DNA of 64,000 nt from positions 1-64,000 of the forward strand of contig NZ_FTMY01000020.1 in assembly GCF_900156165.1 (NCBI RefSeq), written 5' to 3'. This DNA comes from Pseudacidovorax sp. RU35E. Lineage in GTDB: Bacteria; Pseudomonadota; Gammaproteobacteria; Burkholderiales; Burkholderiaceae_C. The position numbers and the translations under genes were made by a program. Under the pieces are notes generated by a model, which was not told the DNA's origin, did no database searches, and saw only the letters and a program-made list of their open reading frames with translations. The number at the start of each line of letters is the position of its first letter. Position 1 is the first letter of the stretch. Positions 17,469-36,119 of this stretch are shown piece by piece.

Positions 17469-18143
17469 ATGGTCGCCGCCATGCCGACCATTCCAACCTC
17501 AACATCCGGCGCCCCCATCGAAGAGCCTGGGACGGCAGCGATCTATGTGCTGGCCGCCCATCCCCATTGGCGGGAATCGCGGGCCAACCGGCGCCTGCGC
17601 GATGCCGCCGCGCGTCTTCCAGGCGTCCAGGTCAACGACCTCTACGCCCGCTACCCCGACTACGCCATCGACGTGGAGGCCGAACAGCAACGCCTGGCGG
17701 CCGCCGAACTGGTGGTCCTGCTGCACCCGATCCAGTGGTACAGCATGCCGCCGCTGCAGAAGCTCTGGCTGGACGAGGTGCTGGACTATGGCTGGGCCTA
17801 CGGGCCAGGCGGCGGGGCGCTGCGCGGCAAGTCGCTCTGGCTCGTGGCCAGCACCGGCGGCGCCGAGGACAGCTACCACCCTGCGGGCTACAACCGCTAT
17901 TTCTTCGACGCATTCCTGCCGCCCTATGAGCAGACCGCCGCCTTGTGCGGCATGCGCTTCCTGCCGCCGCTGCTGCTGCACGATGCGCGGCGCGTGCCGG
18001 AAGCCGAACTCGCCGCGCATGAGAACGTGTTCGTGCAAAGGCTGGCCAGCTACCCGGACTGGCCCGAGATGGCCGAACTGGACGACTGCCCCGAGTGCCG
18101 CGTGCCGGTGGGCGACCGGCCCCAGGGCCCGGGGGTGCGCTGA
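17469..18143 (+). CDS. NAD(P)H-dependent flavodoxin-like oxidoreductase, KefF type
   Basis: About 224 residues with the flavodoxin-like fold of the KefF/MdaB/NQO family. The conserved features are YVLAAHPHWRESRANRRL near the N-terminus, LHPIQWYSMPPLQKLWLDEVLDYGWAYGPGG in the middle and the LVASTGG loop. KefF is the ancillary, FMN-binding subunit that activates the glutathione-gated potassium efflux channel KefC. The next gene is a KefC homologue starting two bases after this stop, which supports that role. ATG 17481 (MPTIPTS) is an alternative start. The last 20 residues are Pro/Cys-rich and not typical. Confidence 0.88.
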   Translation: MVAAMPTIPTSTSGAPIEEPGTAAIYVLAAHPHWRESRANRRLRDAAARLPGVQVNDLYARYPDYAIDVEAEQQRLAAAELVVLLHPIQWYSMPPLQKLWLDEVLDYGWAYGPGGGALRGKSLWLVASTGGAEDSYHPAGYNRYFFDAFLPPYEQTAALCGMRFLPPLLLHDARRVPEAELAAHENVFVQRLASYPDWPEMAELDDCPECRVPVGDRPQGPGVR

Positions 18144-18145
18144 CC

Positions 18146-20002
18146 ATGGAACACGCACCCGCCTGGCTGACCAACAGCCTCATCTACCTGGGCGCCGCCG
18201 TGCTGGTGGTGCCCCTTTCACGCGCGCTCGGCCTGGGCTCGATCATCGGCTACCTGGTCGCCGGCATCGCCATCGGCCCCACCGGCCTCGGACTGGTGTC
18301 CAGCGTCGAGGAGGTCCTGCACTTCGCCGAGTTCGGCGTGGTGCTGATGCTCTTCCTGGTCGGTCTGGAACTGGAGCCGCGCCGGCTCTGGCTGCTGCGC
18401 CGGCCCATCTTCGGCTGGGGAAGCGCCCAGGTGCTGGGCTGCGCCGTGGTGCTGTTCGCCGTGGGCTGCCTGGCCGGCGCACCGTGGCGTGTCTCGCTCG
18501 TCGCGGCGCTCGGCCTAGCGCTGTCGTCGACCGCCATCGCGCTGCAGGTCTTCGGCGAGCGCAAGCTGCTCAAGACAGCCAGCGGCCAGGCGGGCTTTTC
18601 GATCCTGCTGTTCCAGGACGTGGCGGCCATCCCCATCCTGGCGCTGCTGCCGGTGCTGGCCAGCGGTCCGGCCGACGCGCCGCTGGACGCGACGGCGCGC
18701 GCGCTGGAGGCCGCCAAGATCATCGGCGTGGTCGGCGGCATCGTGCTGGGCGGCCGCCTGGCGCTGCGGCCGATCCTGCGCTGGATCGCCCGCAGCAACA
18801 CGCCCGAGATCTTCACCGCCGCCTCGCTGCTGCTGGTGGTCGCCATTGCCGCGCTCATGCAGTTCGTGGGCCTCTCGATGGCGCTGGGTGCCTTCCTCGC
18901 TGGCGTGCTGCTGGCCGAAAGCGAGTACCGCCGCGAGCTGGAGACCGACATCGAGCCCTTCAAGGGCCTGCTGCTCGGCCTGTTCTTCATCGCGGTGGGC
19001 ATGAGCATCGACTTCCGCGTGCTGCTCGCGCAACCCCTTCTGATGGCCGCACTGGTGGTGGGCTTCATGGTGCTCAAGTTCGGCGTCATCCTGCTGCTTG
19101 CACGCGCCATGGGCTTGCCGGCGCGCGAGCGGCCTGTGTTCACGCTGCTGCTGGCGCAGGGCGGCGAGTTCGCCTTCGTGGTCTTCCAGACGGCGGTCGG
19201 TGCGCAGGTGCTGGCACCGGAGACCTCCTCGCTGCTCGTCGGGGCGGTGGCGCTGTCGATGCTGCTGTCGCCCCTGCTGCTCGTGCTTTTCGACCGTCTC
19301 ATTCCGGACCCGCAGAGCCAGGCGCAGGTGGAAGAAATCTCCGAGCCGCAGGAGGCCCAGGTGCTGATCTGCGGCTTCGGCCGCTACGGCCAGATCGTGG
19401 GCCGCGTGCTCCTGTCGCAAGGCATGCCGGTGACGGTGCTCGACCACGACCCCGACACGGTGGAAGGCCTGCGGGAGTTCGGTTTCCGCGTGTTCTACGG
19501 CGATGCGACCCGGCTCGACCTCCTGCGCATCGCGGGGGCCGGTCATGCCCGGGCCATCGTGGTGGCCGTCGACGAGGTGACCACCTGCCTGGCCATCGTC
19601 GACCTGGTGCGGGAGCACTTTCCACAAGCGGAGATCATCGCCCGCGCGCGCAACCTGGGGCACTACTACCAACTGCGCGACCGCGGCATCACGCTGGCCG
19701 AGCGCGAGCTCTTCGAGTCGTCGCTGCGCAGCGCGCGCTCGGTCCTGGAGACGCTCGGCTGGCCGGCGCACGAAGCGCGCGAGGCCGCCATGCACTTCCG
19801 TCAGCGCAACCTGCGCATCGCGGAAGACAGCTATCCCCACTACAAGGACCGCAAGAAGCTCATCGCCGTGGCCAAGGAAGGCCGCCAGCAGTTCGAGGAG
19901 CAGATGGCCCGGGAGCGCGAGGAACGCCGGAGGGCACGCGACTCATGGGGCGTGCGGCACGAGGGCCAGGGCGACGGGGCACGCGCCGAAAGGCCCGACT
20001 GA
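18146..20002 (+). CDS. kefC: Monovalent cation:proton antiporter-2, KefC-like, with RCK domain
   Basis: A 618-residue CPA2 transporter. Roughly 12-13 membrane helices occupy residues 1-390, with characteristic LGSIIGYLVAGIAIGPTGLGL and LLFQDVAAIPILALLPVL. A cytosolic RCK_N/TrkA-N Rossmann domain follows (about residues 405-530, ICGFGRYGQIVGRVLL with GxGxxG, then VTVLDHDPDTVEGL). The C-terminal tail is charged. It exchanges potassium for protons under glutathione/electrophile control with its KefF partner. The ATG at 18146 is two bases past the kefF stop. It is convergent with the amidohydrolase gene, with only 18 bases between. Confidence 0.94.
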   Translation: MEHAPAWLTNSLIYLGAAVLVVPLSRALGLGSIIGYLVAGIAIGPTGLGLVSSVEEVLHFAEFGVVLMLFLVGLELEPRRLWLLRRPIFGWGSAQVLGCAVVLFAVGCLAGAPWRVSLVAALGLALSSTAIALQVFGERKLLKTASGQAGFSILLFQDVAAIPILALLPVLASGPADAPLDATARALEAAKIIGVVGGIVLGGRLALRPILRWIARSNTPEIFTAASLLLVVAIAALMQFVGLSMALGAFLAGVLLAESEYRRELETDIEPFKGLLLGLFFIAVGMSIDFRVLLAQPLLMAALVVGFMVLKFGVILLLARAMGLPARERPVFTLLLAQGGEFAFVVFQTAVGAQVLAPETSSLLVGAVALSMLLSPLLLVLFDRLIPDPQSQAQVEEISEPQEAQVLICGFGRYGQIVGRVLLSQGMPVTVLDHDPDTVEGLREFGFRVFYGDATRLDLLRIAGAGHARAIVVAVDEVTTCLAIVDLVREHFPQAEIIARARNLGHYYQLRDRGITLAERELFESSLRSARSVLETLGWPAHEAREAAMHFRQRNLRIAEDSYPHYKDRKKLIAVAKEGRQQFEEQMAREREERRRARDSWGVRHEGQGDGARAERPD

Positions 20003-20020
20003 GCGGGCCCGCCTCGACGC

Positions 20021-20884
20021 CTACTTCAGCCCCAGCAGGCGCACCGCGTTGTCCTTCAGGATCCCCGGCATCACCTCGGGCTTGAAGCCGGCTTCCTGGA
20101 AGTCCTTCATCCAGCGATCCGGCGTGATCAGCGGGTAGTCGCTGCCGAAGAGGATGCGGTCCTTCAGCAGCGTGTTGGCGTACTGCACCAGCTGCTTCGG
20201 AAAGTACTTGGGACTCCAGCCGGACAGGTCGATCCAGACGTTGGGCTTGTGCGTGGCCACCGACAGCGCTTCGTCCTGCCACGGGAAGCTGGGGTGGGCC
20301 ATGATGATCTGCATGTCCGGGAAGTCGATGGCGACGTCGTCCAGGTGCATCGGGTTGCTGTACTCCAGTCGCAGGCCGCCGCCGCAGCGCATGCCGGAGC
20401 CGATGCCGCTGTGCCCGGTGTGGAAGATGGCCGGAAGCTTGTGCTCGGCGATCACCTCGTACAGCGGCCAGGCCATGCGGTCGTAGGGATGGAAGCCCTG
20501 CACCGTCGGATGGAACTTGAAGCCCTTCACGCCGTGCTCCTCGATCAGCCGGCGCACCTCGCGCGCGCCCATCTTGCCCTTGTGCGGATCGACGCTGCCG
20601 AAGGCGATCATGATGTCGCTGTTCTTCTGCGCCGCCTCGGCGATCTCCTCGTTCGGGATGCGTCGGCGGCCCAGGTTGGACTCGCTGTCCACACCGAACA
20701 TCACCAGCCCGATCTTGCGCTCGCGGTAGTAGTCGATGCTCTCCTGGATGGTGGGGCGCCGGCTGGAGCGGAAGTACTTGTCCGCCGCGCGGTCGTACTC
20801 CTCGCCATAGTTGTCGAAGGGGTTCCAGCAGCTGATCTCGGCGTGGGTGTGGATGTCGATGGCAGTGAGGTTCGCGATGTCCAT
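20021..20884 (-). CDS. Amidohydrolase-2 family metal-dependent hydrolase of the hydroxycinnamate cluster
   Basis: A 287-residue TIM-barrel hydrolase of the amidohydrolase-related group (COG2159-like). Metal-site elements are IDIHTHAEI at the N-terminus, the His of AIFHTGHSG, MAHPSFPW and the terminal Asp in ILFGSDYPLITPDRW. Its only divergent partner is the crotonase/feruloyl-CoA synthase operon, and the two share a palindromic promoter region. From memory of the Agrobacterium fabrum hydroxycinnamate pathway, an amidohydrolase-like protein there hydrolyses 4-hydroxyphenyl-beta-ketoacyl-CoA; the same role is plausible here but unproven. A decarboxylase is the alternative. Start at 20884 is favoured by GGAG nine bases upstream; ATG 20899 is possible. 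Confidence 0.8.
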   Translation of the reverse strand: MDIANLTAIDIHTHAEISCWNPFDNYGEEYDRAADKYFRSSRRPTIQESIDYYRERKIGLVMFGVDSESNLGRRRIPNEEIAEAAQKNSDIMIAFGSVDPHKGKMGAREVRRLIEEHGVKGFKFHPTVQGFHPYDRMAWPLYEVIAEHKLPAIFHTGHSGIGSGMRCGGGLRLEYSNPMHLDDVAIDFPDMQIIMAHPSFPWQDEALSVATHKPNVWIDLSGWSPKYFPKQLVQYANTLLKDRILFGSDYPLITPDRWMKDFQEAGFKPEVMPGILKDNAVRLLGLK

Positions 20885-20934
20885 GGGGCGCGTCTCCATT
20901 GGGGTAAGTACTGATGAGTTGGCCGTTCCGGGCC

Positions 20935-20973
20935 GTTGAATTGATTATTTTTGATAACCATAATCGATCCAAC
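20935..20973. promoter_or_regulatory. Palindromic operator covering two divergent promoters
   Basis: GTTGAATTGATTAT (20935-20948) and ATAATCGATCCAAC (20960-20973) form an inverted repeat matching at 12 of 14 positions around an 11-base spacer. Rightward, TTGAAT (20936-20941), 17 bases and CATAAT (20959-20964) make a good sigma-70 promoter for the crotonase operon. Leftward, by symmetry, TTGGAT (20972-20967), 17 bases and AATAAT (20949-20944) make one for the amidohydrolase. One regulator bound to the palindrome would occlude both. The MarR protein at 33694 is the natural candidate. Confidence 0.8.
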
Positions 20974-20987
20974 TTCCGAACGCAATC

Positions 20988-21761
20988 ATGACCCATCAGG
21001 ACCTCAGCCTCGACATCCAGGGCGACATCGCCATCGTCCGCCTCACGCGCCCGGCCAAGCGCAACGCCCTCAATGACGGCCTGATCCTGGCCCTGCGCAA
21101 CACCTTCGAGAGCCTGCCCGACACCGTGCGCGCCGTGGTGCTCGACGGCGAAGGCCCGCATTTCTGCGCCGGGCTGGACCTTTCGGAAATCAGCGAGCGC
21201 GATGCCGGCGGCGGCCTGCGCCATTCGCGCATGTGGCATGCCGCACTGGAGCTGGTGCAGCATGGTCCCGTTCCCGTGGTGGCCGCCCTGCACGGCGCCG
21301 TGGTCGGTGGCGGCCTGGAGCTCGCCAGCGCCTGCCACATCCGCGTGGCCGATGCCAGCACCTTCTATGCGCTGCCCGAAGGCACGCGCGGCATCTTCGT
21401 GGGCGGCGGCGGCTCGGTGCGGATCCCGCGCCTGATCGGCGTGGCCCGCATGACCGACATGATGATGACCGGCCGCGTCTACAACGCCGAGGACGGCGAG
21501 CGGGCCGGCTTCGCACAGTACCTGGTGCCCGAAGGTGCGGCCGTCGACAAGGCCATCGAACTGGCCCGCCGCATCGCCACCAATGCGCCGCTGACCAACT
21601 ACGCATTGATGCACGCGCTGCCCCGCATCGCCGAGCAGAGCGCCGACCACGGTTTCTTCACCGAGGCGCTGATGTCCGGCATCGTGCAGGACGCGCCCGA
21701 GGCCAAGGCCCGCGTGCGTGCCTTCCTCGAAGGCAAGGCCGCCAAGGTGAGCAAGGGCTGA
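20988..21761 (+). CDS. Crotonase/enoyl-CoA hydratase family protein (hydroxycinnamoyl-CoA hydratase candidate)
   Basis: A 257-residue crotonase. The oxyanion-hole segments GPHFCAGLDLSEIS and HGAVVGGGLELASACHIRVAD are clear, and the active-site Glu region reads FYALPEGTRGIFVGGGGSVRIPRLIG. In this cluster it most likely hydrates feruloyl- or coumaroyl-CoA to the beta-hydroxy thioester. Whether it also cleaves that product to the aldehyde, as hydratase-lyases do, cannot be read from the sequence. The SDR downstream argues for oxidation rather than cleavage. It is the first gene after the palindromic promoter; its leader is only about 17 bases long and lacks a visible Shine-Dalgarno sequence. Confidence 0.88.
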   Translation: MTHQDLSLDIQGDIAIVRLTRPAKRNALNDGLILALRNTFESLPDTVRAVVLDGEGPHFCAGLDLSEISERDAGGGLRHSRMWHAALELVQHGPVPVVAALHGAVVGGGLELASACHIRVADASTFYALPEGTRGIFVGGGGSVRIPRLIGVARMTDMMMTGRVYNAEDGERAGFAQYLVPEGAAVDKAIELARRIATNAPLTNYALMHALPRIAEQSADHGFFTEALMSGIVQDAPEAKARVRAFLEGKAAKVSKG

Positions 21762-21786
21762 GGCCCGGGTCCGCACGGAGAAGAAC

Positions 21787-23694
21787 ATGACGGAGACACT
21801 GGACATGCCTACGCCCACCGCCACCGCCACCGCCGCACCGGCCGCCCGCTACCGCGCGCTCGAATTCGGCATCACCCGCGGCGTGCTGCGCGAGGTTGAG
21901 GGCGGCGTGCAGTACCTGCAGGCCGACAAGCCGCTGGGCCATCATGCCCACCGCATGACCGACCGCCTGGTGTACTGGGCCGCCATGGCGCCCGATCGCA
22001 CCTTCGTCGCCCGCCGCGCCCGCAATGCCGACGGCAGCACCGGCGACTGGATCCGCATCAGCTACCGCGAGGCACTGGCCAAGGTCCGCGCCATCGGCCA
22101 GGCGCTGCTGGACCGCGGCCTGAGCGAAGACCGGCCCGTCGCCATCCTGAGCGAGAACAGCATCGAGCACCTGCTGCTCGCGCTGGGCGCACTCTACGTT
22201 GGCATTCCGCACTGCCCGGTGTCGCCGCCCTACTCGCTGGTCAGCAAGGACTACGACAAGCTGCGCCATGTGATCGGCACGCTCACGCCCGGACTGGTGT
22301 TCGCCAGCGACACGCGCTATGCCGCAGCCATCGCCGCCGTGGTGCCCGCCGACACCGAGGTGGTGCTGGGCGGCGGCGCGCTGGAAGGGCGCACGGTCAC
22401 ACCGCTGTCGCAGCTGCTGGCGACCGAGCCCACCTCGGCGGTCGAGGCGGCCATGCACGGCACGCACCCGGGCACCATCACCAAGTTCCTGTTCACCTCG
22501 GGCTCCACCAAGAATCCCAAGGCGGTCATCAACACCCATCGCATGTGGTGCGCCAACCAGCAGCAGCTGCGCGCCTCCATCCCGGCGCTGGGCGAGGAGC
22601 CGCCGGTGCTGGTCGACTGGCTGCCCTGGAACCACACCTTCGGCGGCAACCACAACGTCGGCATCGTGCTGGACAACGGCGGCACGCTGTACATCGACGA
22701 CGGCAAGCCCACCCCGGGTGGCATCGCCGAGACGCTGCGCAACCTGCGCGAGATCGCCCCCACCGTCTACTTCAACGTGCCCACCGGCTTCGAGTACATC
22801 GCCAACGCGATGGAGGAAGACCCGATGCTGCGCAAAAAGCTGCTGTCGCGCTGCCGCATGTTCTTCTATGCCGGCGCCGCCCTGCCCCAGGCCGTGTGGG
22901 ACCAGCTGCACCGCCTGCAGGAGGCCGAGATCGGCGAGCGCCTGGTGATGGGCACCGGCCTGGGCATGACCGAGTCCGGCCCCTTCGGCCTGTACATCAC
23001 CCGGCCCGAAGTGCGCACCGGCGACCTGGGCCTGCCCACCGCGGGCATGGAGATCAAGCTGGTGCCCACGGACGGCAAGGTCGAGATCCGCTACCGCGGC
23101 CCCAACGTCACGCCCGGCTACTGGCGCATGCCCGAGGCCACGCACGAGGCCTTCGACGAGGAAGGCTTCTTCAAGACCGGCGACGCCGTCACCTGGATCG
23201 ACCCCGACAACATCCACCTGGGCCTGCGCTTCGACGGCCGCATCGCCGAGGACTTCAAGCTGGCCACCGGCACCTTCGTGAGCGTCGGCCCGCTGCGTGC
23301 CAAGGTGATCGCCTTCGGCGCGCCCTATGTGCAGGACGTGGTGCTCACCGGCATCAACCTCAAGGAAGTCGGCGCGCTGATCTTCCCGACCCAGGCCGTG
23401 CGCGAACTGGCGCCCGGCCTGCCGGCCGATGCGCCGCTCAAGGACGTGCTGGCCCATGCCGATGTGCAGCTGCACTTCCAGAAGGTCGTCGACCGCCTGG
23501 CCGGCGACGCCACGGGCAGTGCCAACCGCATCGCCCGCGCTGCGCTGGTGGCCGAGCCGCCTTCCATCGACAAGGGCGAGATCACCGACAAGGGCTCGAT
23601 CAACCAGCGCGCCGTGCTCAAGCACCGCGACGACGCGGTCCAGGCCCTGCACGCCGACACGCTGCCCTTCACCATCAAGCCCCAGTGGCAGTAG
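21787..23694 (+). CDS. fcs: Feruloyl-CoA synthase (AMP-forming)
   Basis: A 635-residue ANL-superfamily ligase matching the long feruloyl-CoA synthase group. Motifs in order: the N-terminal substrate segment GITRGVLREVEGGVQYLQ, the ATP-binding loop FLFTSGSTKNPKAVINTH, LVDWLPWNHTFGGNHNVGI, the adenine-binding GTGLGMTESGP, and GFFKTGDAVTWIDP. The hinge segment is FDGRIAEDFKLATGTFVSVG. It activates ferulate and related hydroxycinnamates with ATP and CoA. GGAG at 21777-21780 precedes the ATG by six bases. It follows the crotonase gene after 25 bases and is probably co-transcribed with it. Confidence 0.93.
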   Translation: MTETLDMPTPTATATAAPAARYRALEFGITRGVLREVEGGVQYLQADKPLGHHAHRMTDRLVYWAAMAPDRTFVARRARNADGSTGDWIRISYREALAKVRAIGQALLDRGLSEDRPVAILSENSIEHLLLALGALYVGIPHCPVSPPYSLVSKDYDKLRHVIGTLTPGLVFASDTRYAAAIAAVVPADTEVVLGGGALEGRTVTPLSQLLATEPTSAVEAAMHGTHPGTITKFLFTSGSTKNPKAVINTHRMWCANQQQLRASIPALGEEPPVLVDWLPWNHTFGGNHNVGIVLDNGGTLYIDDGKPTPGGIAETLRNLREIAPTVYFNVPTGFEYIANAMEEDPMLRKKLLSRCRMFFYAGAALPQAVWDQLHRLQEAEIGERLVMGTGLGMTESGPFGLYITRPEVRTGDLGLPTAGMEIKLVPTDGKVEIRYRGPNVTPGYWRMPEATHEAFDEEGFFKTGDAVTWIDPDNIHLGLRFDGRIAEDFKLATGTFVSVGPLRAKVIAFGAPYVQDVVLTGINLKEVGALIFPTQAVRELAPGLPADAPLKDVLAHADVQLHFQKVVDRLAGDATGSANRIARAALVAEPPSIDKGEITDKGSINQRAVLKHRDDAVQALHADTLPFTIKPQWQ

Positions 23695-23700
23695 CCATCG

Positions 23701-23727
23701 GCGCCCTCCCCTTGAGGGGGAAGGCGC
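23701..23727. repeat. Intergenic hairpin between fcs and the SDR gene
   Basis: GCGCCCTCCCC (23701-23711), a TTGA loop and GGGGGAAGGCGC (23716-23727) form a stem with one mismatch. There is no T-run, so it is not a classical terminator. The core CCCCTTGAGGGGG resembles the CCCCTCGAGGGGG element at 34312-34324, suggesting a dispersed palindromic repeat family. It could stabilise the upstream mRNA or partly attenuate transcription into the SDR gene. Confidence 0.7.
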
Positions 23728-23751
23728 AAGACCCGACAAGGAGATGAATCC

Positions 23752-24516
23752 ATGAAGATCGAAGGACAGAGCGCCCTGGTCACCGGTGGCGCTTCCGGTT
23801 TGGGCGAAGCCACCGCCCGCGAACTCGCACGCCTGGGCGCCAAGGTGGCGGTGCTCGACCGCAACCTCGACCAGGCAAAGAAGGTCGCGGCCGACATCGG
23901 CGGCACCGCCTTCGCCTGCGACATCACCGACACGGCGAGCGTCGAGGCCGCACTGAGCGCCGCGGCGGAGGCCCACGGCCCCGCCCGCATCCTGATGAAC
24001 GTGGCCGGCATCGGCAGTGCCAAGCGCATCGTCGGCAAGGATGGCAGCGCCGCTCCGCTGGAGGACTTCGCCCGCGTCATCCAGGTCAACCTGATCGGCA
24101 CCTACAACGTGAGCCGCCTGTTCGCGGCCCGCTGCGCCAAGCTCGAAGCGCTGGACGGCGGCGAACGCGGCGTGATGATGTTCACCGCCTCCGTGGCCGC
24201 CTTCGACGGCCAGGTCGGACAGCAGGCCTACAGCGCCTCCAAGGGCGGCCTGGTCGGCATGACGCTGCCGATGGCACGCGACCTGGCGCAGCACGGCATC
24301 CGCGTGTGTACCGTGGCGCCCGGCATCTTCGCGACGCCGCTGCTGCTGGAGCTGCCCGAGCCGGTGCAGCAGTCGCTGGCCGCCGCCATCCCCTTCCCCC
24401 CCCGTCTGGGCAAGCCCTCGGAATTCGCCGAGCTGGCCTGCCACATCGTGACCAACGGCCACCTCAATGGGGAGGTGATCCGGCTGGACGGCGCGCTTCG
24501 CATGGCGCCGCGCTGA
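23752..24516 (+). CDS. SDR family 3-hydroxyacyl-CoA dehydrogenase
   Basis: A 254-residue classical short-chain dehydrogenase resembling type-2 (HSD10-like) 3-hydroxyacyl-CoA dehydrogenases. The NAD-binding TGGASGLG (about residues 11-18), the Asp in VAVLDRN that favours NAD over NADP, the NVAGIG loop, and the catalytic Tyr and Lys in YSASKGG are all present. In this operon it would oxidise the beta-hydroxy-phenylpropionyl-CoA produced by the crotonase to the beta-keto thioester. AAGGAG at 23738-23743 lies eight bases before the ATG. Confidence 0.9.
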   Translation: MKIEGQSALVTGGASGLGEATARELARLGAKVAVLDRNLDQAKKVAADIGGTAFACDITDTASVEAALSAAAEAHGPARILMNVAGIGSAKRIVGKDGSAAPLEDFARVIQVNLIGTYNVSRLFAARCAKLEALDGGERGVMMFTASVAAFDGQVGQQAYSASKGGLVGMTLPMARDLAQHGIRVCTVAPGIFATPLLLELPEPVQQSLAAAIPFPPRLGKPSEFAELACHIVTNGHLNGEVIRLDGALRMAPR

Positions 24517-24583
24517 ACCGGGGACGGCAGCGGACCGTCCCCTTGTACGAAGACCTTCAACACAACCACCACGGAGACAACCG

Positions 24584-26395
24584 ATGAAGAAGAAGGAAGA
24601 CGGCAAGACATTCGCGCTGCGCGCACTGGCGGCCGCAGCCCCGTTGGCGCTGCTGGCGGCCTGCGGCGGCTCGGGCAACGACAACGCGCAGAACGCGGCC
24701 CTGGCGGCGGCACTGGCGGCCGCGAACCGGCCGGCGCCCGCACCGGCGCCGGCACCGGCCCCAGCGCCTGCACCCGCGGTCGAGACCATCCCTCAGCTGT
24801 CGGCCGCCGTGGGCGCCGCGCTGCAGTCCTGTACCGACCTGGCCACGCGCATCAGCTTCCCCAACACCACCATCAGCGCCTCCACGCTGGTGACGGCGGG
24901 CACGCTCAAGATCGCAGGCAGCGATGTGCCCGAGCACTGCCTCCTGACCGGCAGCATGTTCCCGCGCACCAGCAGCGTGGACGGCAAGAACTACGCCATC
25001 GGCTTCGAGATGCGCCTGCCGCGGGCCTGGAACGGACGCTTCTTCTACCAGGCCAACGGCGGCCTGGATGGCAGCGTCGTGACCGCCACGGGCACCCTCG
25101 GCGGTGGCCCGCTGACCGGTGCGCTGTCGAACGGCTTCGCCGTGCTGAGCTCCGACGCGGGCCACACGGCCGCCGTGGGCGCAACCTTCGGCATCGACCC
25201 GCAAGCCCGCCTCGACTACGGCTACCAGGCCGTGGCCAAGCTCACGCCCATGGCCAAGAGCGCCATCCAGACCGCCTATGGCAAGGGCCCGGACCGCTCC
25301 TACTTCGGCGGCTGTTCGAACGGCGGGCGCCACGGCATGGTGGCGGCCTCGCGCTACGCCGACCAGTACGACGGCATCATCGCCGGCGACCCCGGCACCC
25401 GCCTACCGCTCGCCGCCACGGCCAACATCGCTGGCGCGCAGACCTATGCCACGCTGGCAACCACGCCGGGCGATCTGGGCAGTGGCTTCACGCAGGCCGA
25501 GCGCACGCTGGTCACCAAGGCCGTGCTGGCGCAGTGCGACGGCCTGGACGGCGCCGCCGACGGCATGGTGCAGGACACCGCGGCCTGCCAGGCGGCCTTC
25601 GACATCAACCGCGACGTACCCACCTGCGCCACCACGCGCAACGGCACCTGCCTGAGCGCGGACCAGAAGACGAAGATCGACAAGCTGTTCAGGAACGGCG
25701 CCACCACACCCAGCGGCCAGCGCATCTACAGCAGCTTCCCCTACGACGCCGGCCTGGACACGGGCGGCTGGAGCTTCTGGAAGTTCACCGTACCGGTGGC
25801 ACTGGACTCGGGCTCGGTGGGCCTGGTGTTCCAGTCGCCGCCCGAAGACCCGAGCTTCAACGGCGCCAATTTCGCGCTGACGGCCAACCTGGACACCGTG
25901 CTGGCCAAGGTGCTGGGCACCACTGCCCTGTACACCGAGAACAGCATCTCCTTCATGACGCCGCCCAACTACGGCAAGCTGCCGGCGCTCAAGAAGCGCG
26001 GCGCCAAGCTGATGGTCTACCACGGCACGGCCGACCCGATCTTCTCGAGCGACGATTCGGTGAGCTGGTACAAGCTCCTGCAGCAGGACAACGGCGGCGA
26101 CGCATCCAACTTCGCCCGGCTGTACCTGATCCCCGGCATGAACCACTGCTCGGGCGGCCCCGCCACCGACCAGTTCGACATGCTCAGCGCCATGGTGAAC
26201 TGGGTCGAGAAGGGCCAGGCGCCCGACAGCGTGGTCGCCAGTGCCCGGGGCACCGGCAATGCCGGCGGTGTGAACACCGACCTGCCCGCCACCTGGTCCG
26301 CCACCCGCACCCGGCCCCTGTGCCCCTATCCGAAGGTCGCCCGCTTCAATGGCACGGGCAGCCTGGAGGATGCGGCCAACTTCAGCTGCCGCTGA
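24584..26395 (+). CDS. Tannase/feruloyl esterase family lipoprotein
   Basis: A 603-residue protein of the tannase/feruloyl esterase family. The N-terminus has a signal peptide with lipobox LLAAC, followed by an Ala/Pro linker of repeated APAP units (about residues 42-66), so it is probably tethered to the outer membrane. The catalytic domain carries the nucleophile motif GGCSNGGRHG (about residue 243), a candidate Asp in YHGTADPIFSSDDS and the His in PGMNHCSGGP. The cysteine pairing typical of the family is likely (Cys next to both the Ser and the His motifs). It would hydrolyse ester-linked hydroxycinnamates or gallates outside the cytoplasm and feed the CoA pathway encoded upstream. Confidence 0.92.
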   Translation: MKKKEDGKTFALRALAAAAPLALLAACGGSGNDNAQNAALAAALAAANRPAPAPAPAPAPAPAPAVETIPQLSAAVGAALQSCTDLATRISFPNTTISASTLVTAGTLKIAGSDVPEHCLLTGSMFPRTSSVDGKNYAIGFEMRLPRAWNGRFFYQANGGLDGSVVTATGTLGGGPLTGALSNGFAVLSSDAGHTAAVGATFGIDPQARLDYGYQAVAKLTPMAKSAIQTAYGKGPDRSYFGGCSNGGRHGMVAASRYADQYDGIIAGDPGTRLPLAATANIAGAQTYATLATTPGDLGSGFTQAERTLVTKAVLAQCDGLDGAADGMVQDTAACQAAFDINRDVPTCATTRNGTCLSADQKTKIDKLFRNGATTPSGQRIYSSFPYDAGLDTGGWSFWKFTVPVALDSGSVGLVFQSPPEDPSFNGANFALTANLDTVLAKVLGTTALYTENSISFMTPPNYGKLPALKKRGAKLMVYHGTADPIFSSDDSVSWYKLLQQDNGGDASNFARLYLIPGMNHCSGGPATDQFDMLSAMVNWVEKGQAPDSVVASARGTGNAGGVNTDLPATWSATRTRPLCPYPKVARFNGTGSLEDAANFSCR

Positions 26396-26431
26396 CCCCC
26401 GCTTTCCTACCCTCGTTCTCCGGAGACTTCC

Positions 26432-27418
26432 ATGCAACACCGTCGTCAATTCCTCCACACCCTGGGCGGCGCGGCCGCCCTGGGCGCCCTGTCGCCCCTG
26501 TCGGCTTTCGCGCAGGCCATCGAGCAGGTCAAGATCATGTACGGCTTCCCGGCCGGCAGTGCGGGCGACACCGTCGCCCGCCGCGTGGCCGAGAAGATCG
26601 CCGGCTCGGCCTATGCCAAGGGCGCCTATGTCGAGAACAAGCCGGGCGCCGGCGGCCGCATCGCGGTCGAGACGCTGAAGAACTCGCCGCCGGACGGCTC
26701 AGTGCTCACGCTGGCGCCGGTGTCGGCCATCGCGGTGTACCCGTACATCTACCCCAAGCTGACCTACAAGCCCGAGGACGTCACGCCCGTCTCCATAGGC
26801 GCCATCATGTTCCACGGCCTGGCCGTGGGCCCGGCCGTGCCGGCCGAGGTGAAGACGCTGAAGGACTTCCTGGCCTGGGCCAAGGCCAATCCGGGCCAGG
26901 CCAGCTACGGGTCGCCCGGTGCCGGCTCGATGCCGCACCTGCTGGGCGCGCTGCTGGGCATGCGCTCGGGCGTGGAACTGAAGCACGTGCCCTACCGCGG
27001 CACCGTGCCCAGCATCACCGACCTGGTGGGTGGCCAGATCGCCGCCGCCATGAACCCCAGCGGCGACTACCTGCAGTACATGAAGAACGGCCGCGTGCGC
27101 GTGCTGGCCACCTCCGGCCGCAAGCGCTCGCCCTACCTGCCCGACGTGCCCACCTTCACCGAACTGGGCTATCCGGACGTGACCTCCGAGGAATGGTTCG
27201 GCTTCTATGCCCCGGCCAAGACGCCGGCTGCGACCCTCGCTTCGGCCAACGCGGCCATCAACACCGCGCTCAAGGACAAGTCGGTGATCGACTCGCTGGC
27301 GCTGGTGGGCCTGGTGGCCCATGGCACCACGGCGCAGGACATGGCCGCCGACCAGAAGGCGGAGTTCGAACGCTGGGGTCCGCTGGTCAAGCAGATCGGC
27401 TTCACGGCAGAGTCCTGA
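26432..27418 (+). CDS. Bug-type periplasmic substrate-binding protein (tripartite tricarboxylate receptor family)
   Basis: A 328-residue protein with an Arg-Arg-containing signal peptide (MQHRRQFLHTLGGAAALGAL, cleavage near AFAQA). The Bug/TctC fold is indicated by VKIMYGFPAGSAGDTVARRVAEK, ENKPGAGGRIAVE, HVPYRGTVPSITDLVGGQI and LPDVPTFTELGYPDV. These receptors bind small carboxylates for TctAB-type transporters or act as sensors. No tctA or tctB is in the window. Sandwiched between two tannase-family esterase genes, it may bind the released aromatic acid. CGGAGA precedes the ATG. Confidence 0.92.
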   Translation: MQHRRQFLHTLGGAAALGALSPLSAFAQAIEQVKIMYGFPAGSAGDTVARRVAEKIAGSAYAKGAYVENKPGAGGRIAVETLKNSPPDGSVLTLAPVSAIAVYPYIYPKLTYKPEDVTPVSIGAIMFHGLAVGPAVPAEVKTLKDFLAWAKANPGQASYGSPGAGSMPHLLGALLGMRSGVELKHVPYRGTVPSITDLVGGQIAAAMNPSGDYLQYMKNGRVRVLATSGRKRSPYLPDVPTFTELGYPDVTSEEWFGFYAPAKTPAATLASANAAINTALKDKSVIDSLALVGLVAHGTTAQDMAADQKAEFERWGPLVKQIGFTAES

Positions 27419-27489
27419 TCGCCCCAGGCTGCCATTGGCGAAGCCGGCTCGTACGATGCCGGCTTCGCGCCGTTTGCGAGACCCTGTCC

Positions 27490-29184
27490 ATGAACGCCTT
27501 CCGCCTTGCCGCCATCGGCGGTGCCATCACCCTGCTCGCGGCTTGTGGCTCGCGTCCGCCGGACGCCGCCACGTCCATGAAAGCCGCACGGCCGGGTGAG
27601 CTGCACACTTGCGAGCGGCTGGAGGCCGCGCCCGGCGTGGTTTTCACCGACGTGCGCAGCGTGCCTGCCGGCCCGGTGGCCGTGCGTGGCGGCAGCGAGC
27701 AGGCACCGGCCCACTGCCTGGTGCAGGGGCGCATGGCCGAACGCACCAGCACGGTGGACGGCCAGCGCTACGCCATCGGCTTCGAGCTGCGGCTGCCGCA
27801 GGCCTGGAATGGCCGCTTCCTGTTCCAGGCCAACGGCGGGCTGGACGGCGTGGTGGTGCCCGCGCTGGGCGGCATCGGGGGCGGCGGGCCGCGCAGCAAC
27901 GCGCTCTCCATGGGCTTCGCGGTGGTCAGCAGCGACGCCGGCCACCCGGCCCCCAATCCGCGCTTCGGCCTCGACCCCCAGGCGCGGCGCGACTACGGCT
28001 ACAGCGCCGTGGCCCAGCTCACGCCGGTGGCCAAGCAGATCGTGGCCCAGGCCTATGGTCGGCCGGCCGACCGCTCCTACATCGCCGGCTGCTCCAACGG
28101 CGGCCGGCATGCGATGGTGGCCGCCTCGCGCCTGCCACAAGCCTTCGACGGCGTGCTGGCGGGCAACCCCGGCTTCCACCTGCCCCGCGCGGCCGTGGCC
28201 CAGCTCTACGGCGCGCAGCAATACGCGCCGCTCGCCACGGCCAAGACGCCACAAGGCGAACCCGACCTGCAGACCGCCTTCACGCCCGGCCAGTTGCAGA
28301 CGCTCTCGCGCGCCGTGCTGGCGCGCTGCGACATGCTCGACGGCCTGACCGACGGCATCGTCGGCGACCTCAAGTCCTGCCAGGCCCGCTTCAACCTGGG
28401 CCGCGACGTGCCCACCTGCACTGCCGGCCGGCAGGACAGCTGCCTGGACCCGGCCCAGAAGATGGCGCTGGCGCGCGTCTTCGCCGGCGCCCGCGACAGC
28501 AACGGGCGGCAGATCTACAGCAGCTTCCCCTTCGACCCCGGCGTCTCGGGCGCCAACTGGCGCGAATGGAAGCTGGCCAGCCCCGCCACCCGCGATGCCG
28601 GCGCCGTGGCCTTCATCTTCAGCACGCCACCGATGGCCGACCGCCCGCAGGGCATGGCCTTCGCGCTCGGCTTCGACATGGACCGTGACGCGCCGCGCAT
28701 CGACGCCACGCAGGCGCCCTATGACGAATCCGCCATGTCCTTCATGACGCCTCCCAATGCCGAGCGGCTGCAGTCGCTGCGGGCGCGCGGAGGCCGCATG
28801 ATCGTCTACCACGGCACGGGCGACGGTGTGTTCTCCTCCGACGACACCGCAGCCTGGTACGAGCGCGTGCAGGCCAACCATGCCGGCCGGGCGGGCGAGT
28901 TCGTGCGCTACTTCCCGGTGCCGGGCATGAACCACTGCAGCGGCGGCCCCTCGACCGACCAGTTCGACATGCTGACCGCACTCGTCGACTGGGTCGAAGG
29001 CGGCCATGCGCCCGAGCAGGTCGAGGCCCAGGCCCGCGGCCCCGTCTCGCCGCAGCCCAATCCCGAAGTGCCTGCCAACTGGGCGCCCGACCGCACCCGG
29101 CCCCTGTGCCCCTATCCCACCGTCGCCCGCTTCCGCGGTGGCGACACCGAACGCGCGACCAGCTTCGCCTGCGTCGCGCCCTGA
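27490..29184 (+). CDS. Second tannase/feruloyl esterase family lipoprotein
   Basis: A 564-residue paralogue of the esterase at 24584, lacking the Ala/Pro linker. It begins with a lipoprotein signal (ITLLAACGS). The nucleophile motif AGCSNGGRHA (about residue 200), Asp segment YHGTGDGVFSSDDT and His segment PGMNHCSGGPSTDQFDM are intact. Extended stretches such as QAWNGRFLFQANGGLDG and FMTPPNAERLQSLRARGG parallel the first copy, so the two arose by duplication, although the linker and many loops differ. Different ester substrates are plausible. The ATG at 27490 is chosen; the frame is open far upstream only because of high GC, and that part overlaps other genes. Confidence 0.92.
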   Translation: MNAFRLAAIGGAITLLAACGSRPPDAATSMKAARPGELHTCERLEAAPGVVFTDVRSVPAGPVAVRGGSEQAPAHCLVQGRMAERTSTVDGQRYAIGFELRLPQAWNGRFLFQANGGLDGVVVPALGGIGGGGPRSNALSMGFAVVSSDAGHPAPNPRFGLDPQARRDYGYSAVAQLTPVAKQIVAQAYGRPADRSYIAGCSNGGRHAMVAASRLPQAFDGVLAGNPGFHLPRAAVAQLYGAQQYAPLATAKTPQGEPDLQTAFTPGQLQTLSRAVLARCDMLDGLTDGIVGDLKSCQARFNLGRDVPTCTAGRQDSCLDPAQKMALARVFAGARDSNGRQIYSSFPFDPGVSGANWREWKLASPATRDAGAVAFIFSTPPMADRPQGMAFALGFDMDRDAPRIDATQAPYDESAMSFMTPPNAERLQSLRARGGRMIVYHGTGDGVFSSDDTAAWYERVQANHAGRAGEFVRYFPVPGMNHCSGGPSTDQFDMLTALVDWVEGGHAPEQVEAQARGPVSPQPNPEVPANWAPDRTRPLCPYPTVARFRGGDTERATSFACVAP

Positions 29185-29201
29185 CTTCCTGCCCGCTTCC
29201 C

Positions 29202-30905
29202 ATGGATTACGCACCCCGTCCTGAAGACGTCCGCTTCCTTCTCGAACCCGTCCTGGGCGCCTCCCAGCAGCTGTCCCGGCTGGCCCCCTTCGCCGAGGTC
29301 GATGCCGACCTGCAGGCCCAGGTGCTGGAGCAGGCCGCCACCTTCGTCGGCGAGGTCATCGCGCCGCTGCAGCGCGATGGCGACGAGATCGGCTGCCGTC
29401 TCAAAGGCGGCCAGGTCCGCACGCCGCCGGGCTTCGCCGCCGCCTACCAGGCCTTCGTGGAGGGCGGCTGGCCCAGCCTGTCTGCCGCGGCCGAAGACGG
29501 CGGCCAGGGCCTGCCCGCCGTGCTGGAGGCCGTGCTCTACGAATGGCTGGCCGGTGCCAACCACGGCTTCACCATGGCGCCCGGCCTGCTGCACGGCGCC
29601 TATGAATGCATCCGCCACCATGCCAGCGACGAACTGAAGGCCCGCTACCTGGGCAAGGTCGCCACCGGCGAATGGCTGGCCACCATGTGCCTCACCGAGG
29701 CCCATGCCGGCAGCGACCTGGGCCTGGTGCGCACGCGCGCCGTGCCGCAGGCCGACGGCAGCGTGCGCGTCTCGGGCACCAAGATCTTCATCTCGGGCGG
29801 CGAGCACGACCTCACGCCCAACATCGTCCACCTGGTGCTGTGCCGCCTGCCCGACGCGCCGGCTGGCCCCAAGGGCCTGTCGCTGGCGCTGGTGCCCAAG
29901 GTGCTGGAGGGTGGCGAGCGCAACGCCGTGCAGTGCGAACGCATCGAGGAAAAGATGGGCCTGCACGGCAGCCCCACCTGCGTGATGCGCTTCGACGAGG
30001 CCACCGGCTGGCTGGTGGGCGAGCCCGGCCGCGGCCTGGCCGCCATGTTCGTCATGATGAATGCAGCCCGCCTGCATGTGGCGCTGCAGGGCATCGGCCT
30101 GCTCGACGCCGCATGGCAGAAGGCGCATGCCTATGCGCAGGAGCGCCGCCAGATGGTGGCCCCGGGCGCCGACCGCGCGGCCGGCCCCAACCTGATCGCC
30201 GAGCATCCCGCGGTGGCGCGCGTGCTGGACGTGCAGCGGGCCTGGATCGACGGCGGCCGGCTCATCGCCTACCGCACCGCGCTGCAGCTGGACGTAGCGC
30301 GCCATGCCGACGATGCCAAGGCGCGCGAGGCCGCGCAGCAGTGGTGCAGCTACATCACGCCCGTGCTCAAGGCCGCATGCACGCAGCAGGGCTTCGACGG
30401 CGCCAGCGCCTGCCTGCAGGTCTTCGGCGGCCACGGCTATGTGCGCGAATGGGGCATCGAGCAGATCCTGCGCGACGCCCGCGTGACCATGATCTACGAG
30501 GGCACCAACGAGATCCAGGCCATCGACCTGCTGGTGCGCAAGGTGCTGCCCGATGCCGGCGCCGGCTTTGCCGCCACGCTGCTGGCGCTGCGCGACGAAC
30601 TGGACGCCTCGCGCGACGTCGATGCCGACGCCCAGCGCCGCCTGGCACAGCTGCGCTACCTGACCACCCAGATCGCCATGGCCGCCCATGCCCAGCCGCG
30701 CCTGCCCTACGAGCTGGCCGACGACTATCTGCGGCTGGTGATGGTGACGCTGCTGGCCTGGGCCTGGGCCCGGATCGAACAGGCGCCCGGCGCTGGCGAA
30801 GCGCAGGCGCGCGCCGCCCGGGCCTTCCGCCGCTGGGTGCTGCCGGAGTTCGACATGCGGGCGGCCATCATCAAGAAGGCGTGCGAGCCGCAGGCTCAGG
30901 CCTGA
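29202..30905 (+). CDS. Acyl-CoA dehydrogenase with C-terminal extension
   Basis: A 567-residue flavoprotein dehydrogenase. Family landmarks are the LATMCLTEAHAGSDLG FAD/substrate segment, IFISGGEHDLT, EEKMGLHGSPTCVMRFD, and FGGHGYVREWGIEQILRDARV. The catalytic Glu is in MIYEGTNEIQAIDLL (about residue 432). The C-terminal extension of about 120 residues places it with the long FadE5-like group. In context it could desaturate phenylpropionyl- or dihydroferuloyl-CoA to the cinnamoyl-CoA level, widening the substrate range of the pathway. It begins 17 bases after the second esterase gene and is convergent with the histidine kinase. Confidence 0.93.
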   Translation: MDYAPRPEDVRFLLEPVLGASQQLSRLAPFAEVDADLQAQVLEQAATFVGEVIAPLQRDGDEIGCRLKGGQVRTPPGFAAAYQAFVEGGWPSLSAAAEDGGQGLPAVLEAVLYEWLAGANHGFTMAPGLLHGAYECIRHHASDELKARYLGKVATGEWLATMCLTEAHAGSDLGLVRTRAVPQADGSVRVSGTKIFISGGEHDLTPNIVHLVLCRLPDAPAGPKGLSLALVPKVLEGGERNAVQCERIEEKMGLHGSPTCVMRFDEATGWLVGEPGRGLAAMFVMMNAARLHVALQGIGLLDAAWQKAHAYAQERRQMVAPGADRAAGPNLIAEHPAVARVLDVQRAWIDGGRLIAYRTALQLDVARHADDAKAREAAQQWCSYITPVLKAACTQQGFDGASACLQVFGGHGYVREWGIEQILRDARVTMIYEGTNEIQAIDLLVRKVLPDAGAGFAATLLALRDELDASRDVDADAQRRLAQLRYLTTQIAMAAHAQPRLPYELADDYLRLVMVTLLAWAWARIEQAPGAGEAQARAARAFRRWVLPEFDMRAAIIKKACEPQAQA

Positions 30906-30914
30906 GCGGCAGCG

Positions 30915-33410
<2,496 letters not shown>

Positions 33411-33693
33411 GCCCGTTCGTCCACCTCACGCGACGGCCATCGAGCAGCCGGACCGCACCCCGGTGCTCCTTCGCGGGCAGTGTGGCAGGCGGGGCTCGCC
33501 CGCGGTGTCGGAATCGCCTCAATTCGCGGCAGCGCGCAGGCACGTCGGCGGCGCAGGAGGCGCTCGTTTAAAGTAGCCCGCTCCTGCACCGGCCACGAGC
33601 CGCTGCCGCGTATCCCACGGCGCCCCGGCCTGGCGCGACCGCGGCGCCCGCATGACGCGGCCTGCACCCAAGCTCCGAGACGACACCCCTTCC

Positions 33694-34176
33694 ATGCCCA
33701 CCCCCAAGCCTCGTTCGCGCAAGCCTGTTCCAGCTGCGACCACGGCAGCCGACCCGCTGGACAGCCACGTGCTCGAAAGCCTCGTCGGCTACAACACGCG
33801 CCGCGCCTACCTGGTGGTGTATGCGACCTTCGCGGAACGCATGGCCGTGTACGGCCTCAAGCCGACCGACTTCTCGGTGCTCTCGCTGCTGGCGCACAAC
33901 CCGGGCGCGACCTCGCGCCAGCTGTGCGCCGCGCTGGACATCCAGCCGCCCAACTTCGTGAGCCTGGTGGCGGCCATGGACCGACGCGGGCTGATCGAAC
34001 GGCGCCCGCATCCGCACGATGGGCGCGCGGTGGGGTTGCACCTCACGGACGCCGGCCACCAGTTGATGGCCGAGGCGGAAGAGGCCGTGATCCAGCTGGA
34101 GAAGGACGCCAGCCACAAGCTCACCGACCGCGAGCGCGACACGCTGATCCGCCTGCTGCAGAAGATCTACCTGTAG
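33694..34176 (+). CDS. MarR family transcriptional regulator
   Basis: A 160-residue winged-helix regulator. The DNA-binding region runs from LKPTDFSVLSLLAHNPGATSRQLCAAL through the wing LIERRPHPHDGRAVGLHLTDAG. It is transcribed divergently from the histidine kinase, beside the hydroxycinnamate genes. MarR proteins that respond to hydroxycinnamoyl-CoA control such operons in several bacteria, so the palindrome at 20935-20973 is its likely target. I saw no second copy of that palindrome in its own upstream region. ATG 33652 is an alternative start that adds 14 residues; neither has a clear Shine-Dalgarno sequence. Confidence 0.88.
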   Translation: MPTPKPRSRKPVPAATTAADPLDSHVLESLVGYNTRRAYLVVYATFAERMAVYGLKPTDFSVLSLLAHNPGATSRQLCAALDIQPPNFVSLVAAMDRRGLIERRPHPHDGRAVGLHLTDAGHQLMAEAEEAVIQLEKDASHKLTDRERDTLIRLLQKIYL

Positions 34177-34234
34177 CCGGGCGCACCGGCCCCGTCGGAC
34201 AAGGCGGCATGCCGCCTCGCATGCACCCGGCGCT

Positions 34235-34356
34235 CCCCTTGATCGAAGGGCCGCGGAGCACGCCATGCCAGTGCACCCGCGGAACCGGCTTCGCCGGGCC
34301 GGGGGGTGCGCCCCTCGAGGGGGATTGGACTTCCACACGAAGTGAGGAAGTCCAAA
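34235..34356. repeat. Composite palindromic intergenic element
   Basis: Between the convergent MarR and SDR genes lies a run of nested palindromes. These include CCGGCTTCGCCGG near 34285-34297 and the core CCCCTCGAGGGGG around 34312-34324. A perfect 10-base inverted repeat follows: TTGGACTTCC (34325-34334) and GGAAGTCCAA (34346-34355) around an 11-base loop. No gene fits here. The core resembles the hairpin at 23701-23727. It can act as a bidirectional transcription stop, but the modular structure looks like a dispersed repeat. Confidence 0.7.
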
Positions 34357-34371
34357 CGGGGTGGCTTCATT

Positions 34372-35136
34372 TCACGGCTGGCGCACATCCGCCACCGGCT
34401 GCGCGCCGAAGTCCGGCCGCTCGAGCCAGGCCAGCACCTTGCGCGCAGCCGACTCGGGCGAATCCAGCTGCCCGTTGCGGTGCAGCGCCTCGAAGCGGCT
34501 GCGGTCGGGGAACAGCCCCGCATCGGCGCTGCGCAGTGCGACCTGCATGTCGGTGTCGATCACGCCGGGCGCCAGCGACACGATGCGCGCACCGCCCTCC
34601 TGCGCCCCCTCCAGCGCCACGGCGCGCGAGAAATGGTCCATGCCGGCCTTGGCGGCGCAGTACGGCGCCTGGCTGCCCATGGCGTTGCGGCCCAGACCCG
34701 AAGAGATGTTGAGCACCTGCCGCGACGCAGCCCAGCCCGTGGTCGCGGACAGGAAGGCGCTGGTCAGCAGCAGCGCCGCTTCCAGCCCGACGCGCAGCGC
34801 TGCCGACAGCTCGGGCAGCGAGGCGCGCGCCAGCGGCGCCGTCCGTCCGACGGTGCCGGCGTTGTTGATGAGCACCGCATGGCGAAGCAGCGCCGCGTCC
34901 TGCGCGGCCAGCCAGTCCGCGAGCCGCTCGGCCACGGGCAGGGGGTCGGCCAGGTCGACCGACCATTGCAGGACCGCGCTGCCCGCCGCTGCCGCTTCGG
35001 CCTCCAGCGTGGCGTCGATGCCGCGCGACAGGCACAGCAGCTGCACGCCGCCGCGCGCGAGCAGCTGGCTCGCCATTGCACGGCCCATGCCGCGCGAGGC
35101 GCCTGTCAGGACGACGAGTTCGTTGATGGAAGCCAT
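34372..35136 (-). CDS. SDR family oxidoreductase
   Basis: A 254-residue short-chain dehydrogenase. Visible motifs are the cofactor-binding TGASRGMG (residues 11-18), the NNAG loop (LINNAGTVG), the catalytic Ser in LNISSGLG, and the Tyr and Lys in YCAAKAGMDH. Arg and Ser following the first strand (LSRGID) suggest NADPH preference, as in sepiapterin reductase-like SDRs; that is inference. AAGGAG lies about 10 bases before the ATG at 35136. It may be co-transcribed with the TauE/SafE gene upstream. The substrate is unknown, and a longer frame here that joins it to the upstream gene is not real. Confidence 0.9.
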   Translation of the reverse strand: MASINELVVLTGASRGMGRAMASQLLARGGVQLLCLSRGIDATLEAEAAAAGSAVLQWSVDLADPLPVAERLADWLAAQDAALLRHAVLINNAGTVGRTAPLARASLPELSAALRVGLEAALLLTSAFLSATTGWAASRQVLNISSGLGRNAMGSQAPYCAAKAGMDHFSRAVALEGAQEGGARIVSLAPGVIDTDMQVALRSADAGLFPDRSRFEALHRNGQLDSPESAARKVLAWLERPDFGAQPVADVRQP

Positions 35137-35204
35137 GGGCGTGAAGCTCCTTGCAGTGGAAGGTGGAGGGTGGGTCCCGGCGGGACGAGGTGCGGGCGCT
35201 GCGC

Positions 35205-35975: not shown

Positions 35976-36119
35976 GGCGAAGGCGGCCGCGCAACGGGCC
36001 GGCGCAGGGAGAGCGAAGCGCGGATTGTGCCGAGGGTTGCCGATGCGTGCAGGAAGGAGCGCCTGCCTGCGCCGGAGGTCAAGGACACCGACGCGATACG
36101 GGCAGCCGCAGCGCCCCCG

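Follow-up and report, generated by a model that had tools for sequence, protein, structure and literature searches.

The palindrome between a divergent amidohydrolase gene and a hydroxycinnamoyl-CoA operon in Pseudacidovorax sp. RU35E is very probably the operator of a CouR-type MarR repressor (gene 33652), located inside the rightward catabolic promoter. The site is conserved upstream of orthologous operons, its core lies in the spacer of the rightward promoter, and it co-occurs with this MarR gene; we infer from sequence comparison that the MarR protein binds and represses there, that a ligand releases it, and that the amidohydrolase gene is co-repressed. Positions refer to the window, the whole 64,000-nt stretch of contig NZ_FTMY01000020.1 that was analysed, and its relevant features are as follows.

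20021..20899, minus strand: divergent amidohydrolase (Amidohydro_2), possibly a CouO-like hydrolase (sequence and domain match)
20902..20914, plus strand: second conserved box, GGGTAAGTACTGA (also GGGTAARYACYGA), whose GGG lies 40 to 44 nt before the dyad in 102/123 distinct loci
20935..20973, no strand: inverted repeat with 14-nt arms, comprising the operator, the rightward -35 and -10, and poorly conserved bases (arm pairing, column conservation)
20936..20941, plus strand: rightward -35, TTGAAT (promoter scan, column conservation)
20943..20959, no strand: operator core, the 6-5-6 dyad GATTAT-TTTTG-ATAACC, with family consensus GGTTAT-N5-ATAACC (orthologous upstream regions)
20944..20972, minus strand: claimed leftward promoter TTGGAT-17-AATAAT, present and not conserved (strict form in 2/123 distinct loci, the window being neither of the two)
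20959..20964, plus strand: rightward -10, CATAAT (promoter scan, column conservation)
20988..21761, plus strand: crotonase/enoyl-CoA hydratase (ECH), first gene of the operon (domain and NCBIfam matches)
21787..23694, plus strand: acyl-CoA synthetase, candidate hydroxycinnamate (feruloyl)-CoA ligase (PRK12582, 695 bits, under the cutoff of 777)
23752..24516, plus strand: short-chain dehydrogenase (SDR), candidate beta-hydroxyacyl-CoA dehydrogenase (domain match)
24584..26395, plus strand: tannase/feruloyl esterase (domain match)
26432..27418, plus strand: TctC/Bug solute-binding protein (domain match)
27490..29184, plus strand: second tannase/feruloyl esterase (domain match)
29106..30905, plus strand: open reading frame of an acyl-CoA dehydrogenase, whose true start is probably within the frame (domain match)
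30915-33410, minus strand: hybrid sensor kinase (GAF, PAS, HisKA, HATPase, receiver), separating the acyl-CoA dehydrogenase gene from MarR
33652..34176, plus strand: MarR-family repressor, CouR-like, starting at 33652 or 33694 (domain matches, co-occurrence with ECH)

The amidohydrolase gene has an alternative start at 20884, preceded by GGAGAC, that may be the true one. The two tannase/feruloyl esterase paralogs stand on both sides of the TctC gene, and many relatives show only one of them. A terminator scan found 6 candidates, with 5.8 expected.

The arms GTTGAATTGATTAT (20935-20948) and ATAATCGATCCAAC (20960-20973) are complementary at 12 of 14 positions with 11 nt between them, and both the inverted repeat and the hexamer positions put forward by an earlier, sequence-only reading of this DNA are confirmed. 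When the 103-nt intergenic region was shuffled 400 times with dinucleotides preserved, one shuffle gave arms matching at 12/14 or better with a spacer of 3 to 20 nt. The surrounding 30 kb contains 20 such pairs, compared with 7 and 6 in two shuffles, so the palindrome as evidence from one sequence alone is weak. This abundance is also what speaks for a chance palindrome in an A+T-rich promoter, an explanation that is refuted by conservation of the site over 126 distinct loci and by its presence in other families as well, and to which we assign a negligible probability. Scanning the window for GATTAT-N11-ATAATC with up to 3 mismatches returned the target alone (1.05 expected by chance), as did a search of the organism's own genome for GGTTAT-N5-ATAACC with up to 1 mismatch. 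At 2 mismatches, the genome holds 37 further places, compared with 18 for a reversed-pattern control.

We retrieved ECH orthologs from all 15 genomes of the genus (E<=1e-60, own genome included) and from 120 of 200 genomes of the family (E<=1e-90), together with 80 named loci from Pseudacidovorax, Variovorax, Xenophilus, Polaromonas, Ramlibacter, and others. The nearest named locus is that of Pseudacidovorax sp. NFM-22, with an ECH identity of 100%. The resulting 167 loci, consisting of the window, 86 from the genus and family searches, and the 80 named ones, were each read over about 300 nt upstream of ECH; in two of them (L099 and L185), a nearby contig start truncates the sequence. Some species appear twice, in the whole-genome and named sets, and counts are therefore given for 126 distinct 52-mers, or for the 123 that match the dyad at 9/12 or better. 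The dyad matches GGTTAT-N5-ATAACC at no fewer than 9 of 12 bases in 164 of the 167 upstream regions, and the three that fall below are L099 (cut at its contig start), L124, and L135. Best scores among the 126 distinct sequences are 12 in 29, 11 in 60, 10 in 27, 9 in 7, 8 in 2, and 7 in 1. Scores of at least 9/12 thus occur in 123/126 distinct loci versus 53/630 shuffles, and scores of at least 11/12 in 89/126 versus 1/630.

The conserved element is smaller than the repeat with 14-nt arms. It is GATTAT-N5-ATAACC, contained within the 17-nt spacer of the rightward promoter; the rest of the 12/14 palindrome, its outer arm bases, consists of the rightward -35 and -10 together with bases of poor conservation. 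Across the 123 distinct sequences, the inner dyad's TTAT and ATAA have 1.7 to 2.0 bits per column, in columns anchored on the dyad, which inflates the dyad itself. An anchor-free count gives the same element: TTAT-N5-ATAA is present in 79/87 loci, and any other 4-N5-4 dyad in 5 at most. Pairs 0/16 and 1/15 are complementary in 71 and 78 of 125 sequences where 65 and 76 were expected, and the inner pairs vary too little for covariation to be informative. One locus, L124, has a double change at dyad pair 4/12. The dyad is also kept at 9/12 or better in 38 of the 41 distinct loci with no amidohydrolase seen within the roughly 300 nt read, indicating that the element belongs to the rightward operon. 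Counting against an operator inside a promoter are four loci (L103, L104, L105, and L107) that keep the dyad and lack the usual -35 and -10.

TTGAAT-17-CATAAT is the sole sigma-70-like match in a scan of both strands from 18000 to 36000, and as 0.7 matches are expected from shuffles, promoter likeness by itself proves nothing. It is conservation that sets the two directions apart. The sequence-only reading had proposed two back-to-back, mirror-image sigma-70 promoters within the palindrome, both shut by one dimer. Both hexamer pairs are indeed present in the window, the amidohydrolase gene is divergent from ECH in 85/126 distinct loci, and the Rhodococcus couN/couR pair demonstrates the principle (PMC4737184). 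However, 86 of the 123 distinct sequences pass a strict test for the rightward promoter and 2 (L109 and L195) for the leftward one, and among the 85 loci with a divergent amidohydrolase, a pair total of at least 9/12 is reached by 75/85 rightward and 5/85 leftward. The rightward hexamer columns carry about 0.8 to 1.5 bits, compared with 0.08 to 0.55 bits for those of the leftward -35 (20967-20972), both across the 123 distinct sequences. In the window itself, the leftward TTGGAT matches TTGACA at 3/6, and the pair, at 8/12 in total, is absent from the scan output. The TTAT half-site produces the leftward -10 as a by-product, and loci with the commoner half-site form, GGTTATT, have AATAAC in its place. 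The mirror promoter is thus not supported by the comparison, and this arrangement is unlikely.

Co-control of the divergent amidohydrolase gene by the operator nevertheless appears plausible. We consider it about an even chance that one operator co-represses both directions, as in Rhodococcus CouR, through a different leftward promoter, such as one with its -10 at TATGGT (20957-20962) or one of a nonconsensus type. In the window, some 60 nt separate the amidohydrolase start from the operator, and in the 85 loci it is likewise nearby; in 25 of these, the TATGGT/TATTGT position scores best among the leftward candidates. The search of the 85 loci gave no single leftward position common to them, and it is only the rightward promoter that is seen to be conserved and overlap the operator. 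Pathway logic favors co-control: the ligase, hydratase, SDR, and amidohydrolase appear to suit a beta-oxidative route better than the vanillin route, and a CouO-like last step in such a route is a reason for switching the amidohydrolase together with the operon. In R. jostii, CouO, a member of the amidohydrolase superfamily, is described as performing the last step of hydroxycinnamate deacetylation to the aromatic acid (PMC4737184; PMC9618137).

The protein most likely to act on the site is one dimeric MarR-family repressor, encoded by gene 33652 (or 33694), with the operator lying before the hydroxycinnamoyl-CoA genes. The protein matches PF12802 at 57.5 bits (cutoff, 27) and PF01047 at 37.7 bits (cutoff, 24.6). 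Among solved structures, its best relative is CouR 6c28 (E = 1.4e-20; the next is at 2.9e-09), which we take to be the Rhodopseudomonas palustris protein. The best NCBIfam model is the Saro_0803 equivalog, which it matches at 81 bits, under the cutoff of 200. At E<=1e-25, the MarR protein is found in 69 of the 76 family genomes whose ECH is at least 66% identical, compared with 0 of the 44 genomes with a lower-identity ECH and 4 of the 80 without an ECH at 1e-90. In the 69 genomes with both MarR and a close ECH, the two share a contig in 57 and lie on different contigs in 12; all 57 same-contig MarR genes are on the ECH strand, and 54 lie downstream within 15 kb. A CoA ligase follows ECH in all 41 loci examined for gene order. 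This co-occurrence, the uniform strand, and CouR as best relative lend good support to the assignment, already made from the single sequence, of this MarR gene (33652/33694) to one operator.

Several observations count against the pairing. The window contig has no other operator site at up to 2 mismatches. The sensor-kinase gene intervenes between MarR and the operon in the window; in its closest relatives, MarR directly follows the acyl-CoA dehydrogenase gene without it. The distance from the dehydrogenase match to the MarR match is about 1.8 kb in four of the loci (L059-L062) and about 4.5 kb in the window. Seven of the 76 close-ECH genomes lack MarR at 1e-25, two of which are incomplete (G022 at 65% and G054 at 74%). 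G022, without a MarR match, keeps a good operator site (L020). G137 has an altered site, GTTCT-N5-AGAAC (L124), and, 3.1 kb downstream of it, a MarR of 31% identity. The dyad of G168 (L135) is under 9/12, the loci of G036 and G066 (L130 and L138) match the promoter-operator core poorly yet reach 9/12, G054 (ECH, 68%) has a 9/12 match off the usual place (L266), and the locus of G191 is the cut L099. Clades also confound the co-occurrence, as joint changes of regulator and operator may have been few.

Boxes of LysR-type regulators follow the rule T-N11-A, and GTTAT-N5-ATAAC fits this form, so the dyad could in principle serve an unlinked LysR-type regulator. Against this, the dyad lies between -35 and -10, a position for a repressor, its presence tracks MarR, and no LysR gene is found among the 30 window ORFs scanned (a selection, some in a wrong frame); we regard a LysR box as very improbable.

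Under the MarR assignment, a dimer would bind GATTAT-N5-ATAACC (20943-20959), filling the 17-nt spacer between -35 TTGAAT and -10 CATAAT, and would bar RNA polymerase from the promoter of the operon for ECH, CoA ligase, SDR, esterase, TctC, and acyl-CoA dehydrogenase. When a hydroxycinnamate is present, the CoA ligase would yield p-coumaroyl- or feruloyl-CoA, and the repressor would be released; by homology to CouR, a CoA thioester is the likely inducer. Any amidohydrolase promoter overlapping the region of about 100 nt would be switched by the same dimer, and the amidohydrolase may be the CouO-like last step of beta-oxidative deacetylation.

We also compared the MarR-bearing loci with 40 contrast loci (L228-L267), drawn from 39 of the 44 lower-identity genomes (five were left out) plus G054, which has an ECH of 68% and no MarR. 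These mostly keep ECH adjoining the CoA ligase. On the 12-base dyad, they score 7 in 14, 8 in 16, 9 in 9, and 10 in 1. GTTAT-N5-ATAAC at 9/10 or better is found in 2/40 contrast loci versus 79/87 in the MarR-bearing set. The split is not clean: a threshold of 8/10 is reached by 14/40 contrast loci where 2.4 are expected, as a related site would give, which suggests that a related site remains there. Conversely, TTAA-N5-TTAA at 7/8 or better occurs in 26/40 contrast loci (1.1 expected) versus 9/87 of the other set, and at 8/8 in 6/40 versus 1/87; the motif had been spotted by eye in the contrast loci before being counted there. We quote the TTAA-N5-TTAA counts because a perfect GTTAT site already scores 8/10 on the pattern GTTAA-N5-TTAAC.

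A search for diverged MarR proteins in 40 genomes (the 33 lower-identity genomes covered and the 7 close-ECH genomes without MarR), with one match entered for 33 of them and that on the ECH contig where seen, found, in 22 genomes, a MarR of 29 to 41% identity on the ECH strand and no more than 15 kb downstream (21/33 lower-identity, 1/7 close-ECH). Recognition helices were compared in 71 of 81 sequences: 47 in the first group, which includes the window and in which 9 of the 40 loci L059-L098 gave none, and 24 of 25 in the second, in which L290-L292 are off the ECH contig and two (L285 and L291) belong to close-ECH genomes. At residue 103, the first group has V in 47/47 and the second A or T in 24/24; at residue 98, the first has L or Q in 47/47 and the second S or T in 20/24.

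The site recurs in other families of the phylum (L313-L330), where GTTAT-N5-ATAAC at 8/10 or better lies upstream of ECH in 15/18 loci and is perfect in 10. Ten of the 15 belong to one family (f48), nine of them to one genus, and hence are not independent. Most f48 genomes have a CouR-like MarR within about 14 kb of ECH, and all nine f48 MarR proteins examined near ECH read ILRPNFV, as in CouR 6c28; the MarR proteins of these other families were picked by eye as near ECH, plus three on other contigs. Two MarR proteins of family f38 count against the pattern, as in G223 and G502 the site is accompanied by other helices (IQPPNFG and IKKTNFV). The remaining three other-family loci do not have the site; the helices of G593 and G470 differ widely, and that of G485 reads RPNLV, contrary to the pattern.

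A second conserved element lies upstream of the dyad. A GGG[T/A]AA-type box is found 15 to 75 nt upstream in 113/123 distinct loci, compared with 26 on the other strand and 5 in the next 60 nt as controls. Its GGG starts 40 to 44 nt before the dyad in 76/85 loci with the amidohydrolase and in 26/38 without. The center of the box is some 64 nt upstream of the predicted start, a location that would suit an activator, and the box is a possible activator site. The pattern occurs in 24/40 contrast loci over a longer stretch (200 nt), a count that is hence not comparable with 113/123. Patterns of the box match 2, 3, and 4 places in the organism's own genome, and its palindromic form is rarer than its control (14). 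The genes beside these places form no clear common set and gave no candidate regulator. Near-exact copies lie beside a PTS gene and a LacI-family gene (G000:C4:11698) and near a TctC gene (G000:C13:184455).

It is possible, at slightly less than even confidence, that regulator and operator have changed together within one family while the ECH-ligase core stayed constant, with GTTAT-N5-ATAAC accompanying PPN[F/L]V and TTAA-N5-TTAA accompanying [A/P]PN[M/L][A/T], and that a second, putative activator acts at the conserved GGGTAA box near -64. A third pair may come from G137, whose GTTCT-N5-AGAAC site lies beside the MarR of 31% identity. This co-divergence is a correlation with few independent changes, and clades confound it. 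If true, it would provide a natural series for a base-by-base MarR recognition code, with residue 103 (V versus A/T) as the first suspect. With operator and recognition helix diverging in pairs, these loci form a natural set for tests of DNA choice by MarR proteins, and the GGGTAA box hints at a second layer of control. The operator and its MarR protein form a testable regulator-operator pair for the catabolism of lignin-derived phenolic acids in Pseudacidovorax, Variovorax, Polaromonas, and relatives.

Among known systems, CouR of R. palustris (PDB 6c28, 6c2s, and 6c9t) is the best solved relative of MarR 33652 and shares the recognition helix PNFV with it; the likeness is one of protein and gene context. 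It is described as repressing enoyl-CoA hydratase and CoA ligase genes and as being released by p-coumaroyl-CoA (PMC10458429), and its DNA site is reported to differ from that of R. jostii CouR (PMC9594313). The same operator letters may already have been published for R. palustris. Saro_0803 of Novosphingobium aromaticivorans (nov1) resembles our protein as its best NCBIfam model and has an A/T-rich 22-bp site near -10 with the inverted repeat GCAATA-N6-TATTGC (PMC10046596); it differs in its ligand, resveratrol, and in its gene context. FerC of Sphingobium SYK-6, FerR of Pseudomonas fluorescens BF13, and HcaR of Acinetobacter and Agrobacterium are likewise MarR regulators of hydroxycinnamate genes that answer to CoA thioesters (PMC4737184, PMC10458429). 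They are likened here by regulator type and ligand class, and FerR and Acinetobacter HcaR are unlike the present system in controlling non-beta-oxidative (vanillin) pathways (PMC10458429). The parts of two further papers available to us name MarR control of ferulate genes without an operator (PMC5863372, PMC6388921), and by title or the start of the abstract, our literature search yielded no paper recognizable as describing an operator in the window's family.

CouR of Rhodococcus jostii RHA1 offers a parallel in site layout. It is a MarR repressor of a beta-oxidative hydroxycinnamate pathway ending in the amidohydrolase-superfamily CouO, and its box, cATTGA-N5-TCAATg, lies between divergent promoters and shares the 6-5-6 layout of the dyad described here (PMC4737184). 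The half-site letters differ, couR is itself one of its divergent genes, and its box overlaps the -35, whereas the present dyad fills the -35/-10 spacer. As that box overlaps both predicted -35 boxes of the divergent cou promoters (PMC4737184), calling the arrangement in the window unusually economical was an overstatement. The design is of a known kind, and its placement in the -35/-10 spacer and its half-site letters are what this group shows.
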